Positions 3,907 through 12,293 of a stretch of DNA of 64,000 nt are shown piece after piece. This DNA comes from Thiohalorhabdus denitrificans (GTDB lineage: Bacteria; Pseudomonadota; Gammaproteobacteria; Thiohalorhabdales; Thiohalorhabdaceae). A program made the translations under genes and the position numbers. Position 1 is the first letter of the stretch, and every line of letters starts with the position of its first letter. The notes below the pieces were generated by a model. It was given only the letters and a program-made list of their open reading frames with translations. It searched no databases and was not told where the DNA came from. The stretch lies in contig NZ_LJCP01000006.1 in the NCBI RefSeq assembly GCF_001399755.1, positions 62,001 through 126,000 on the forward strand, written 5' to 3'.

Positions 3907-5247
3907 CTATTTACCGATACAGAAGGTAGCGAAGATCCGCCCCAGGAGGTCGTCGGAATGGACCCGTCCGGTGATCTCTCCCAGGGCCTCGTGGGCGCGT
4001 CGTAGGTCCTGGGCGACTAGGTCGCCGCTGCCATAGTTTTGCAGGGTCCCGGCGGCGCTGGCCAGTTCCGTTGCCACCCGGTCCAGCACCTCGAGGTGGC
4101 GTTGCCGTGCCCCCAGGGCATCGCCCCCGCCCTGCAGGGGAAGCCGCCTGCGCAGCTCCTCTTCCAGGGGCCCGACGCCGGGCTCCCCGGTACAGGAGAT
4201 GGCCGGGGCACCCTCGGCGGCGTCGAGGTCGGCCTTCGTCCACAGGGCCACCCGCCGGTCCTCGGGGAGGCGGCCCCATTCCCGTGCGTCCTCCGAGGTC
4301 CAGCCCTGCTGGCTATCCACGAGAAAAAAGACCAGGTCGGCACGCTCCACCAGATCCCGGGCACGCCGTACCCCCTCGCGTTCCACGGGGTCATCGGTCT
4401 CCCGGAGCCCTGCGGTGTCGGCCAGTTCCACGTGGAACCCATCCAGGGCCACCTTTTCCCGGAGAATATCGCGGGTGGTGCCGGCGCGCTCGGTGACGAT
4501 GGCGGACTCCCGCCCGGCTAGGCAGTTCAGCAGGCTGGACTTGCCGGCGTTGGGGCGGCCGGCCAGGACCACCAGGAACCCCTCCGACAGCCGGACCCCC
4601 GTGGAGGCACGCTCCCGAAGCCGGGTAAGCCGCTCCCGTACCGCTGAGAGCCGACCGTCCACATCCCCCGTGGCCAGAAAGTCCACGTCCTCGTCGGGAA
4701 AATCCAGGGAACCTTCGACAAAGACACGAAGATCAGCCAGCTCCTCGGCAAGCTGTTCCACCTGACGCCCGAACTCCCCTTCCAGGGACCGGAGCGCGGC
4801 CCGCGCTCCGGCCAGGGAATCCGCCTCGATGAGCTCCGCTACCGCCTCGGCCTGGGACAGATCCATGCGGTCGTTCAGGAAGGCACGTCGGGTAAACTCC
4901 CCGGCCTCGGCGGCCTCGGCCCCGGCGTCAAAGGCGGCCTGCAGGATCCCGTTGAGCACGGCCGGACCACCATGGCCGTGCAGCTCCACCACATCCTCGC
5001 CCGTAAACGAACGGGGACCCGGAAAGAAAACGACGAGCCCCTGATCCAGAGGCTCGCCGCGGGAATCCCGGAAGGTGGCGAAGTGGCAATAGCGCGGCTG
5101 CAGATCCCCGCGCCCGGATACCGTCAGCCCGATGGCCTGGGCCAGGGGACCGGAGACGCGGACCACCCCCACCCCGCCCCGCCCCGGGGGCGAGGCGATG
5201 GCGGCGATGGTCCGTCCCGCTACGTGATTTTCCGCATCACCCACCAT
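3907..5247 (-). CDS. mnmE: tRNA modification GTPase MnmE (TrmE)
   Basis: 446-aa G protein partner of MnmG in cmnm5U34 synthesis; it binds 5-formyl-THF as one-carbon donor. The N-terminal THF-binding domain (about 10-125) contains the [15 protein letters not shown] start. The GTPase domain has G1 GRPNAGKS (230-237), G2 TT (257-258) and G3 DTAG (277-280). The C-terminal CIGK (443-446) carries the catalytic cysteine. The ATG at 5247 lies inside the end of yidC (28-nt overlap), consistent with one transcript yidC-mnmE-mnmG. A parS palindrome lies in the codons for FHVE (271-274), just before G3. Confidence 0.97.
4424..4439. promoter_or_regulatory. parS: parS-type palindrome inside mnmE
   Basis: Perfect palindromic core GTTCCACGTGGAAC at 4425-4438 with A and C as outer bases. 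It is translated as FHVE (271-274) just before the G3 motif of MnmE. Confidence 0.75.
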
Positions 5248-9593: not shown

Positions 9594-10691
9594 GTGCGGT
9601 TTCGGTGTGCCAAGGAGGATCTACTCGCGGGCCTGAATCCCGCGGCGTCCGTCGTGGAGAGCCGCCAGACCCTGCCCATCCTGGGCCACCTGCATGTGCG
9701 GGCCGGAGACGGGGAGGTGGCGCTGACGGGTACCGATCTGGAGGTGGAGCTCCAGGCCGGGTTTCCCGGCGAGGTGGAGGAGGCCGGCACGGCTACCGTG
9801 CCGGCCCGGAAGTTCCTAGATATCGCCCGCTCCTTGCCGGACGGAACGCAAGTGCAGGTCTTCCAGGACGAAACCGGGGTCACTGTGCAGGCCGGCCGCG
9901 GCCGCTACCGCCTGGCAGGCCTGCAGCCCGAGGACTTCCCGCGCCTGGAGCTGGACGCCTACCAGCGCGAGGTGAGCATCCCCCAGGGGGCCCTGAAGGC
10001 CCTGCTCGAGGGGACTTCCTTCGCCATGGCCCGCGACGACGTGCGTTACTACCTGAACGGGGTCCTTCTCGAGTGGAACGAGGCCAACCTGCGCGCGGTG
10101 GCCACCGACGGCCATCGCCTCGCCCTCATGGATCGCGAGGTGGATGCCACCAGCGAGGAGACCCGGGTGATCCTGCCCCGCAAGGGGGTCCAGGAGCTGG
10201 AGCGCCTCCTGGACGACACCGAGGACCCCATCACGGTGGGCTTCACCGCCAACCACGTGCGGTTCCGGCTTCCCGGGGTGACCTTCACCTCCAAGCTCAT
10301 TGAAGGGAAGTTCCCCGACTACCGGCGCGTCATCCCGGAGGCCAACGGCAACCGGGTCATCGGCGACCGCAAGACCATCCAGCAGGCCCTGCGGCGGATC
10401 GCCATCCTGTCCAACCGCAAGACCCACGGCATTCGCCTTTCCTGTCGGGAGGGGGTCCTGGAGCTTTCCGCGGAGAACCCCGACCAGGACCAGGGCGCGG
10501 AGGAGGTTCCCGTCACCTACGACGGCGAGTCCCTGGAGATCGGCTTCAACGTGGAGTACTTGCAGCAGGCCATGGGCGCACTGCCCACCGAGGAGGTGGT
10601 CATCCACGTTTGGGACGCCCAGTCCAGCTGCCTGATCATGGCCCCGGACGATACCTCGGTTAAGTACGTCGTCATGCCCATGCGCCTCTAG
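9594..10691 (+). CDS. dnaN: DNA polymerase III beta sliding clamp
   Basis: 365-aa ring-forming processivity clamp with three repeated clamp domains; E. coli DnaN is 366 aa. Family blocks include LPILGHLHVRAGDGEVALTG near the N-terminus and the C-terminal VVMPMRL that forms part of the peptide-binding pocket. It starts with GTG at 9594 behind a strong GAGGGGGAG. Its stop codon (TAG 10689-10691) coincides with the left end of an inverted-repeat element, which separates dnaN from recF, usually adjacent. Confidence 0.97.
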   Translation: MRFRCAKEDLLAGLNPAASVVESRQTLPILGHLHVRAGDGEVALTGTDLEVELQAGFPGEVEEAGTATVPARKFLDIARSLPDGTQVQVFQDETGVTVQAGRGRYRLAGLQPEDFPRLELDAYQREVSIPQGALKALLEGTSFAMARDDVRYYLNGVLLEWNEANLRAVATDGHRLALMDREVDATSEETRVILPRKGVQELERLLDDTEDPITVGFTANHVRFRLPGVTFTSKLIEGKFPDYRRVIPEANGNRVIGDRKTIQQALRRIAILSNRKTHGIRLSCREGVLELSAENPDQDQGAEEVPVTYDGESLEIGFNVEYLQQAMGALPTEEVVIHVWDAQSSCLIMAPDDTSVKYVVMPMRL

Positions 10692-10891
10692 CAGGGCGGT
10701 GAAAAACGTCGCGAGGAAGGCCAGATGCAAGGCGCCCACCGCCGCCCCGTCTCGCCAATTAAAGACTTGGCGGGCGTGCAGTAGAGCACGCACCGCGCAG
10801 CGACCGAGGCATATCAAGAAGATAGGTGAGGGAACGAGCAGTGCGCAACGCCGCAGATGGCCTCCGCAGCAGTTTTTCATCGTCCTGCTAG
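10688..10891. repeat. 204-bp imperfect inverted-repeat element between dnaN and recF
   Basis: The outer arms TAGCAGGGCGGTGAAAAAC (10689-10707) and GTTTTTCATCGTCCTGCTA (10872-10890) are inverted repeats matching 17 of 19 positions; one further base pair extends each end. The inner flanks (AGGCCAGATGC on the left, GCAGATGGCCT on the right) also pair partly, so the whole element can fold into a long hairpin. No coding sequence is convincing inside. It resembles a small non-autonomous repeat (MITE-like or BIME-like). No second copy is visible in this window. Confidence 0.65.
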
Positions 10892-11228
10892 CGGGAACGG
10901 GGAAGCGCCTCTAAAGAAGGCGGACGGAGGTAGGCCGGGCATCGACCGGCCCCCGCCGTTCTCCCTTAGTCCCCTAAAACCTGGTAAGAAGAACTCTTCG
11001 TCCTCCCGCGGTACCCTTCCTTCCGCCCGCAAAGGGCCCCGCCTCTTCCGGCTACCAATGCCCCCCGTAGCCCTCGGTTATGCGTTAGAATAGACGGGCG
11101 TACCGAACGGCTTGCGCACCCTGCCCGCCCACGGGGCCACGAGGGTGAAGCCCCGGTCTCCGGCGCGGACCGGGTCGGCCTTCCCGCCGAGAACCGCCGG
11201 TTCCTGCAGCCCGGCCAATGGAGTGGTG
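10892..11228. other. Non-coding stretch before recF
   Basis: About 340 bp with no convincing gene. A TAGAAT hexamer (11087-11092, in GCGTTAGAATAG) could be a -10 element for recF-gyrB, but no good -35 precedes it. The GTTAGAAT string is also present before dnaA (8147-8154). Nothing else could be identified. Confidence 0.4.
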
Positions 11229-12293
11229 GTGGTCATTCAACGGCTCCAGATCGGCGCCTTCCGGAACATCTCTTCGGCCCGCCTGGATCCTGCGGAAGGG
11301 GTGAACCGCCTGGTGGGGGTGAACGGGGCCGGGAAGACGAGCGTTCTGGAGGCCGTTCACTTCCTTGCCTCCGGGCGCTCCTTCCGGCGCGGCGGGCCGG
11401 ATACCCTCCGCCAGAACGGTAGCGGCGAGGCGGTGCTGTCCGCCCGGATCGCGGACCGCGGGGAGCATGCCCTGGGCGTCCGCCTTGGCGAGGGATCCCG
11501 GGAGATCCGCCTGGACGGGGCCAACGTTCCCGGCTTTTCGGCCCTGGCCGGGGTCCTGAAGACCATCCACTACACCCCGGAGGGCCACCGCCTGGCTTCC
11601 GGAGGTCCCCGGGAGCGCCGCCGGTTCCTCGACTGGGGGCTGTTCCACGTGGAACCCGCCTACCTGGACTTGGCGCGGCGCTACCACCGGACCCTCCAAC
11701 AGCGAAACCGCTGGCTGAAGACGGGTCCTTCGGGGCCCGATCCCTGGGCCAGCCAGCTGGCCGCCTCCGGGGAGGAGATCAACCAGCAGCGCGAGGCCTA
11801 TGTGGCCCGTCTGGAAGGTAAGGTACAGGAGATCTTCGGGGAGCTGGGCGGCGCCGGGGAGCTGACCATGGGTCTGGAGCAGGGCTGGCCGGAGGCCCTG
11901 GGGTTGGGGGAGGCCCTCGAGCGGGACCGCCGCCGAGAGCTCGACAGCACCCGGATGGGACCGCACCGGGCGGATCTCCGCCTGATCCTGGACGGCAGCC
12001 CGGCTCGGGAGCGTGCCTCCCGGGGCCAGCAGAAGATTATCATCCTGGCCCTGCGCCTCGCCCAGTTGGCCTTGGCCCTGGAGGTGAGCGGGGAGGTCCC
12101 GGTCTTCCTGTTCGACGACGTGGGCTCCGAGCTGGATCCGGAGCGTCGTCGGGCGGCCATGGGCCTCCTGGAGCGCTACGGCAGGCAGGTTTTCGTCACC
12201 AGCACGGAGGAGGCCTTGTGCCCCCTCCCCTCCTCTGGTATCCCGGCAGCAACATTCCGGGTGCACGAGGGGACCATCGAGCGGAGCGAGTGA
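11229..12293 (+). CDS. recF: DNA replication and repair protein RecF
   Basis: 354-aa SMC-like ATPase that helps load RecA at gaps. Walker A is GVNGAGKTS (29-37), followed by SVLEAVHFLASGRSFR. The signature region lies near RERASRGQQKIIILALRLAQ, and Walker B/D-loop is VFLFDDVGSELD. The frame is open upstream to 11112. I chose the GTG at 11229 (MVIQRLQIGAFRNI) because a GGAG lies five bases upstream and the length then matches the family (E. coli 357 aa). A parS palindrome is embedded at codons 139-142 (FHVE). The stop TGA is directly followed by the gyrB ATG. Confidence 0.95.
   Translation: MVIQRLQIGAFRNISSARLDPAEGVNRLVGVNGAGKTSVLEAVHFLASGRSFRRGGPDTLRQNGSGEAVLSARIADRGEHALGVRLGEGSREIRLDGANVPGFSALAGVLKTIHYTPEGHRLASGGPRERRRFLDWGLFHVEPAYLDLARRYHRTLQQRNRWLKTGPSGPDPWASQLAASGEEINQQREAYVARLEGKVQEIFGELGGAGELTMGLEQGWPEALGLGEALERDRRRELDSTRMGPHRADLRLILDGSPARERASRGQQKIIILALRLAQLALALEVSGEVPVFLFDDVGSELDPERRRAAMGLLERYGRQVFVTSTEEALCPLPSSGIPAATFRVHEGTIERSE
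11641..11656. promoter_or_regulatory. parS: parS-type palindrome inside recF
   Basis: TGTTCCACGTGGAACC contains the perfect core GTTCCACGTGGAAC (11642-11655) and matches the parS family consensus at 15 of 16 positions. It is translated as FHVE (139-142) in RecF. Confidence 0.75.

Follow-up and report, generated by a model that had tools for sequence, protein, structure and literature searches.

The dnaN gene of Thiohalorhabdus denitrificans ends at a short hairpin element that is very probably a MITE mobilized by an IS5-type transposase. The usual view of MITEs is of deletion derivatives whose ends define them. In this family, the interior is more constant than the ends and is found in about one in eight of the sampled genomes of the phylum, raising a testable question: what selection can act on a transposon interior? 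Our best reading is that MITEs of one lineage, with a hairpin core under selection, have been mobilized by successive IS5-type transposases. Whether the core itself has a function we regard as close to an even question.

The element at the dnaN stop codon

We refer to the whole 64,000-nt stretch of DNA that was analyzed as “the window”, to its genome as G000, and to the two other species of the genus that were examined as G001 and G002. Positions 10688-10891 of the window consist of a 196-bp body bracketed by two CTAG target duplications. The features of the region are as follows:

9594..10691, plus strand: dnaN, sliding clamp (TIGR00663, E 7.9e-98; open reading frame); ends ...MPMRL-stop, with the TAG within the left CTAG
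10688..10691, no strand: left 4-bp target-site duplication CTAG, containing the dnaN stop TAG; exact copy at 10888-10891
10692..10707, plus strand: left terminal inverted repeat CAGGGCGGTGAAAAAC, from the comparison of the ends
10708..10736, plus strand: left arm of the core, alignable with the copy on contig C10 of G000 (present in core alignments A1 and A2)
10737..10790, plus strand: 54-bp insert, missing from the C10 copy and from 12 copies of G064 and G092, genomes from other families
10791..10871, plus strand: remainder of the conserved core, including the apex GCGACCGAGGCATATC...GATAGGTGAGG; matched by core model R1
10872..10887, minus strand: right terminal inverted repeat, minus-strand reading CAGGACGATGAAAAAC; 16/16 to the end of an IS5-type element in G001
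10888..10891, no strand: right 4-bp target-site duplication CTAG, exact copy of 10688-10691
11229..12293, plus strand: recF, the next downstream gene (TIGR00611, E 1.4e-94)

An earlier note on this DNA had proposed a hairpin element inserted at the dnaN stop codon, and this is confirmed. The RNA fold of 10688-10891 has a predicted energy of -100.3 kcal/mol (z = -6.97), with 0 of 200 shuffles as good. Within the window, the ends are unique to this site: the pattern CTAGCAGGGCGGTGAAAAAC / CTAGCAGGACGATGAAAAAC, with 3 mismatches allowed, occurs there at two places only, with 0.00 expected by chance. The two ends match at 18/20 positions with the duplication included. The 19-bp terminal repeats of the earlier note are real as matching ends, but the CTAG duplication makes up 4 of the ~20 bp on either side; the terminal repeat proper is 16 bp long, with 14/16 positions matching between 10692-10707 and 10872-10887. 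A generic inverted-repeat search of 10500-11100 reported none, presumably because the two mismatches break the 9-base exact seed. Similarly, the element had been said to supply the dnaN TAG. The TAG does lie at the left edge of the element, but it belongs to the duplicated target and not to the element body. Because the stop codon lies within the left CTAG, DnaN is unaltered and ends in MPMRL. The claim that the element lacks coding capacity holds insofar as there is no transposase gene; a 71-aa GTG frame and longer antisense frames do cross it.

The earlier note had also suggested a mobile or folded repeat, to be checked by a search for copies with shared ends. Both descriptions are supported, the second by the fold and the first by a 150-bp copy elsewhere in the genome (C10:591585-591734) that has the same two ends and CTAG duplications and is 98–99% identical to the window copy in the matched parts. 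It stands at the TAG ending a 434-codon open frame, a DUF1614 gene (the PF07758 match spans the full profile, 1-171 of 171, and falls one residue short of the stop codon); our crude gene caller missed it as a stop-codon case. A third, diverged copy lies on contig C7, and the core model lists three copies in G000. In the window, core model R1 matches 10763-10869 (68.4 bits, E 3.9e-17), its sole match up to E 10 in the 64 kb, with the first ~28 positions of the match landing in the 54-bp insert. This nested insert, by which the window copy exceeds the C10 copy, starts with CACCGC, a sequence repeated at 10791 directly after it, which leaves a few bases of doubt about where exactly the insert begins and ends. 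No further copy of the insert was found in G000 beyond matches ~15–22 bases long. It resembles one unit of a tandem array in G002, with matches of 78%, 76%, and 75%; the array (L108:4805-5198 on G002:C63) has 7.1 copies of a 55-bp unit.

The element is neither unique nor present at the same site in all relatives. The dnaN of G001 is 85% identical, stops with TGA, and is followed by no element. In G002, there is no element within the 26 bases after the dnaN stop, to where the contig runs. G064 and G092 have 8 and 4 copies, respectively, of 148–149 bp including duplications; the duplications are exact in 10 of these 12 copies (CTAG, CTAA, TTAG, or CTAT). A DNA match at E 0.001 was found in 9 of the 94 genomes searched as relatives, a count that includes G000 and in which several matches are weak and short.

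A core shared by elements with different ends

We scanned 84,980 species genomes with a degenerate pattern for the core center, requiring an exact match, and obtained at least 120 stretches. The matches listed come from Beta- and Gammaproteobacteria and from Geobacteraceae, with examples in Tepidiphilus, Halothiobacillus, Thiobacillus, Gallionella, and Trichlorobacter. For the alignment, we used 117 of the 122 listed matches, dropping 5 without full flanks. The elements carry several types of end, which we refer to as class A (CAGGCTGTTGAAAAAC), class B (GGGCACCTCGAAAAAC), class C (GGAAACGCTGAAGAAAT), and others. Across the 53 columns that lie outside both the search pattern and the ends, mean identity between classes A, B, and C is 74–81%; the most divergent single pair among all end groups is 42% identical over these columns. 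For a strict count, 6 of the 122 listed matches were dropped because they lie at contig edges, which left 116 elements. An inverted end is recognizable in 58 of them (0/116 when shuffled), and these fall into at least nine end types; in the other 58, the end repeat is below threshold, and five of the nine types are represented by one element each. One genome can contain several types: the Rhodocyclaceae assembly L.E.AP.42 has classes B and C and a fourth end type. On a tree of the cores, in which hosts are mixed within end classes and good support is limited to 4 of the 97 inner branches, four end labels need 17 changes (minimum 3; shuffled 53.3). The ends therefore seem, on this comparison of sequences, to have been exchanged several times, though not freely.

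A covariance model of the core (~107 nt), built from 39 sequences and applied with a threshold of E 1e-6, was run on 369 genomes of the class and on 398 of the phylum. It has matches in 39 and 49 of them, respectively, G000 included in both; 27 of the 49 are in other classes. The filters for large genome sets lose weak matches in both counts. Phages and viral contigs gave no match, and plasmids gave one, of 53 bases, in a Nitrosomonas plasmid. Rfam has no match up to E 1 in 10500-11300 of the window, and none at gathering in four loci (L016, L017, L024, and L316). Among the best matches listed from open-access PubMed Central, none concerns the core family, a MITE at stop codons, interiors with different ends, or a MITE in a riboswitch, and the core family is apparently undescribed so far. 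Two further observations concern individual loci. A core match (L191) lies in a metagenome assembly labeled Klebsiella pneumoniae, a label that may be wrong. In Halothiobacillus (G100 and G096), class B elements (L291, L292, and L294) contain nested ~21–27-bp REP-like hairpins of the CTAACGCGGAGCTGGCGTCAGCCCG type, one to several per element and, as judged by eye, at differing positions, which looks like repeated insertion.

Like IS5-mobilized MITEs, the element is short, lacks a transposase gene, has terminal inverted repeats and a 4-bp YTAR duplication, and has an end in common with an IS5_4-type element; unlike them, it has an interior conserved across many genomes and several end types. 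It resembles the Correia/NEMIS, CIR, RUP, and RPE repeats, as described in part in PMC2229807, in being small, non-autonomous, and folded as RNA. The QMITE1/2 elements of Coxiella are likewise small, non-autonomous, and folded, and some QMITE copies overlap gene 3′ ends (parts of PMC5896051 and PMC10969869). As far as these partial accounts go, such small repeats are known from one or a few genera: CIR is described from Caulobacter and Brucella (PMC2229807), and QMITE1 has no orthologues elsewhere (PMC5896051, PMC10969869). By contrast, the present core occurs in 49 of the 398 genomes searched in a phylum and with several end types. IStrons, in which a group I intron is combined with an insertion sequence (part of PMC4227781), offer another parallel, since a structured module has repeatedly been joined to transposon parts; unlike in IStrons as described there, no intron or catalytic RNA is recognized in the core, which spans just ~107 nt.

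Transposases, target sites, and places of insertion

A candidate for a mobilizer is a 1333-bp IS5-type element on contig C5 of G001, with ends CAGGACGATGAAAAAC and CAGGCTGATGAAAAAC. The first of these is identical to the right end of the window element (16/16). The transposase frame of the 1333-bp element is interrupted, and its 4-bp flanks are unequal (TTAA vs TTAG). Another IS5-type transposase in G001 (L103) has no interruption, and its score exceeds the NF033581 IS5_4 cut-off. In G000, we found only one transposase of the IS5 type, at C15:3816; it is truncated, its best NCBIfam match is IS5_4 at a score below cut-off, and the end adjoining it matches the element end at 15/16 positions. No intact element with these ends was seen, and any mobility at present is putative. 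Next to the truncated gene (L018:1210-3750, minus strand, on C15), there is an 846-aa ORF that presumably encodes a protein resembling TIR-domain proteins with an ATPase part.

We propose that an IS5-type DDE transposase, acting in trans, would grip the CAGGnCGnTGAAAAAC ends, insert the element at YTAR, and duplicate 4 bp; we infer that the window element moved by means of this transposase. YTAR is reported, in the part of PMC10359306 drawn on here, as the conserved target duplication of IS5, and the CTAG of the window copy fits it. Among class A elements, 20 of 35 have exact 4-bp duplications, and 19 of those 20 are YTAR. For class C, YTAR accounts for 11 of 22 exact duplications, a weaker preference. 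In these counts, and in the stop-codon counts below, identical central sequences were counted once, and class A or C ends were required on both sides.

Partners for the other end classes are less clear. In Tepidiphilus margaritifer, a candidate for class B has GGGCACCTCGAAAAACC on one side of a transposase gene region and, on the other, a right end that departs at 3 positions; it is IS5_4-like, below cut-off for the piece searched, broken into several frames, and has no matching duplication. A 1491-bp class B candidate in G100 was rejected, since by eye it consists of two MITE-like ends around other sequence. For class C, none of 15 DDE_Tnp_1 matches in five genomes, scanned for ends, proved to be a partner IS. 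In eight loci that carry IS5-type transposase genes, a search with the core model up to E 10 turned up nothing. These IS therefore do not need the core, and on this search the element does not qualify as a deletion derivative of a partner IS.

Insertion at a stop codon is frequent in one class. Of 32 class A elements, 17 coincide exactly with a stop codon, compared with 35 of 198 control YTAR sites, none of them interior to a gene (p 4e-5); for class C, the figure is 10 of 37 (p 0.14, not significant). This test used crude gene calls with ORFs of at least 80 codons and left out elements with <300 bp of flank. Both G000 copies with CTAG duplications, in the window and on C10, stand at the TAG stop of a gene. 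Copies would accumulate at such positions because YTAR contains TAG or TAA and because the protein stays intact; target choice and survival together would thus lead to landing on the dnaN stop. The YTAR rule offers a concrete reason for finding such elements on the stop codons of essential genes.

A second kind of site is a structured RNA. In two of the three species of the genus, G000 and G002, a core-bearing element lies inside the sole TPP riboswitch found (L017 on G000:C7, core 352674-352781; L316 on G002:C203, core 4360-4464). The sole TPP match of G001 is above cut-off and uninterrupted (C2:424991-425097); those of G000 and G002 are below cut-off, with none reported by Rfam at gathering. 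We read the TPP motif in these two genomes as interrupted by the core element: the conserved riboswitch halves are separated by 153 and 146 bases with the core, in G000 and G002, respectively, vs 7 bases in G001. The flanks align with those of G001 at 52/55 and 62/64 bases in G000 and at 46/55 and 52/64 bases in G002. The position of insertion corresponds to a loop that we take to be that of stem P3a. In G000 and G001, thiC is the gene that follows (NF006763), and its predicted start in G002 looks alike. In both genomes, the core has the strand of the riboswitch, and the predicted fold keeps the inserted element as an extension of that stem. Core identity is 0.79 between the riboswitch copies of G000 and G002, and 0.85 between the C7 and C10 copies of one genome; on these values, there may have been either one shared, old insertion or two separate ones. 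The thiC copies provide a natural experiment in the tolerance of structured RNAs for inserted sequence.

Constraint on the core and its possible meaning

The interior is a conserved module of two imperfect inverted arms closed by a conserved apex; on our reading, selection would maintain it for propagation, while the terminal repeats would be swapped for those of other transposases. The covariation figures come from a 33-row alignment, A3, composed of 30 loci from the class-wide search and three others; the model guided this alignment, 3 of the 33 rows had gone into building the model, and the exact search pattern is present in 10 of 33. For these 33 matches, the covariation score is 0.507, vs 0.179 for shuffles and 0.047–0.074 for slid controls. 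In A3, 93.4% of cells pair, and both sides have changed in 22 of 27 pairs. Covariation in a palindrome can also arise through arm-to-arm copying, without function. The majority frequency in A3 is 0.63–0.64 in the outer stems and 0.80–0.83 in the inner blocks outside the search pattern.

These figures bear on the alternative that we take most seriously, which competes only with the part of our reading that concerns the core, and to which we give somewhat less than an even chance: that the core has no function of its own and marks one old MITE lineage, spread horizontally, with ends drifting in step with the transposases. The clustering of end classes on the core tree argues for it, as ends and core have mostly been inherited together, and IS5_4 is the best family both for the transposases linked to class A ends and for those linked to class B ends. 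Neutral decay, however, should not spare the inner core over the outer part, and the stems show compensatory change. A different departure, tentative at best in our judgment, would make the core an independent selfish module, e.g., a hairpin recognized by a host replication or recombination factor, riding on acquired transposase ends. If so, it would have swapped its ends on several occasions, across Proteobacteria and into Geobacteraceae, and the way it folds would permit sites at stop codons and even within a riboswitch stem.

It is also conceivable, though improbable, that the core acts as RNA, with the transcript of a host gene folding into a rod that protects, terminates, or regulates the mRNA. 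Several observations point that way: (i) the fold is very stable; (ii) the riboswitch copies of G000 and G002 share the riboswitch strand and a predicted stem extension; (iii) one strand has two sites at which GA stands opposite GA (28 and 27 of the 33 rows of A3 at the first, 21 and 17 of 33 at the second), figures that are fairer than the invariance seen in A1, which is partly selected because the positions lie partly within the search pattern; (iv) for 27 of 40 full elements, RNA of the plus strand folds more stably than RNA of the minus strand (p 0.0004). Against an RNA role, the plus strand is more stable in just 22 of 33 cores (p 0.17), and a test restricted to pairs predicted on both strands shows no preference for G-U over A-C in three alignments (32/26, 13/10, and 26/22). 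Orientation relative to neighboring gene 3′ ends is unbiased, at 32 sense and 34 antisense (counted on 60 of 104 elements, 44 being set aside for an overlapping ORF of at least 100 aa), as is core orientation at stop codons (15 sense, 15 antisense). Neither an intrinsic terminator (a GC stem followed by a T run; 0 found in 10600-11300) nor an Rfam match was found. The null strand test and the equal orientation counts weaken a strand-specific RNA function, and since G-U shows no preference in three alignments, we read the constraint on the core as DNA-level or strand-neutral. Under the reading that we prefer, a MITE lineage with a selected core, the core would serve propagation, and its likeliest forms are a hairpin in the DNA and a paired site for protein binding.

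A non-mobile regulatory hairpin or terminator built by the host between dnaN and recF, suggested by the adjoining replication gene and the strong fold, is scarcely credible: the near-identical second copy, which shares the ends and the target duplication, is enough to refute it as the whole explanation, G001 has no element at dnaN, and 10600-11300 contains no promoter match and, as noted, no terminator. The distance from the end of dnaN to the start of recF is 537 bp, of which the element and the second CTAG make up 200; in G001, the spacer is 208 bp. The element does not account for the whole length of the spacer; a further 337 bp, at 10892-11228, lie between it and recF.
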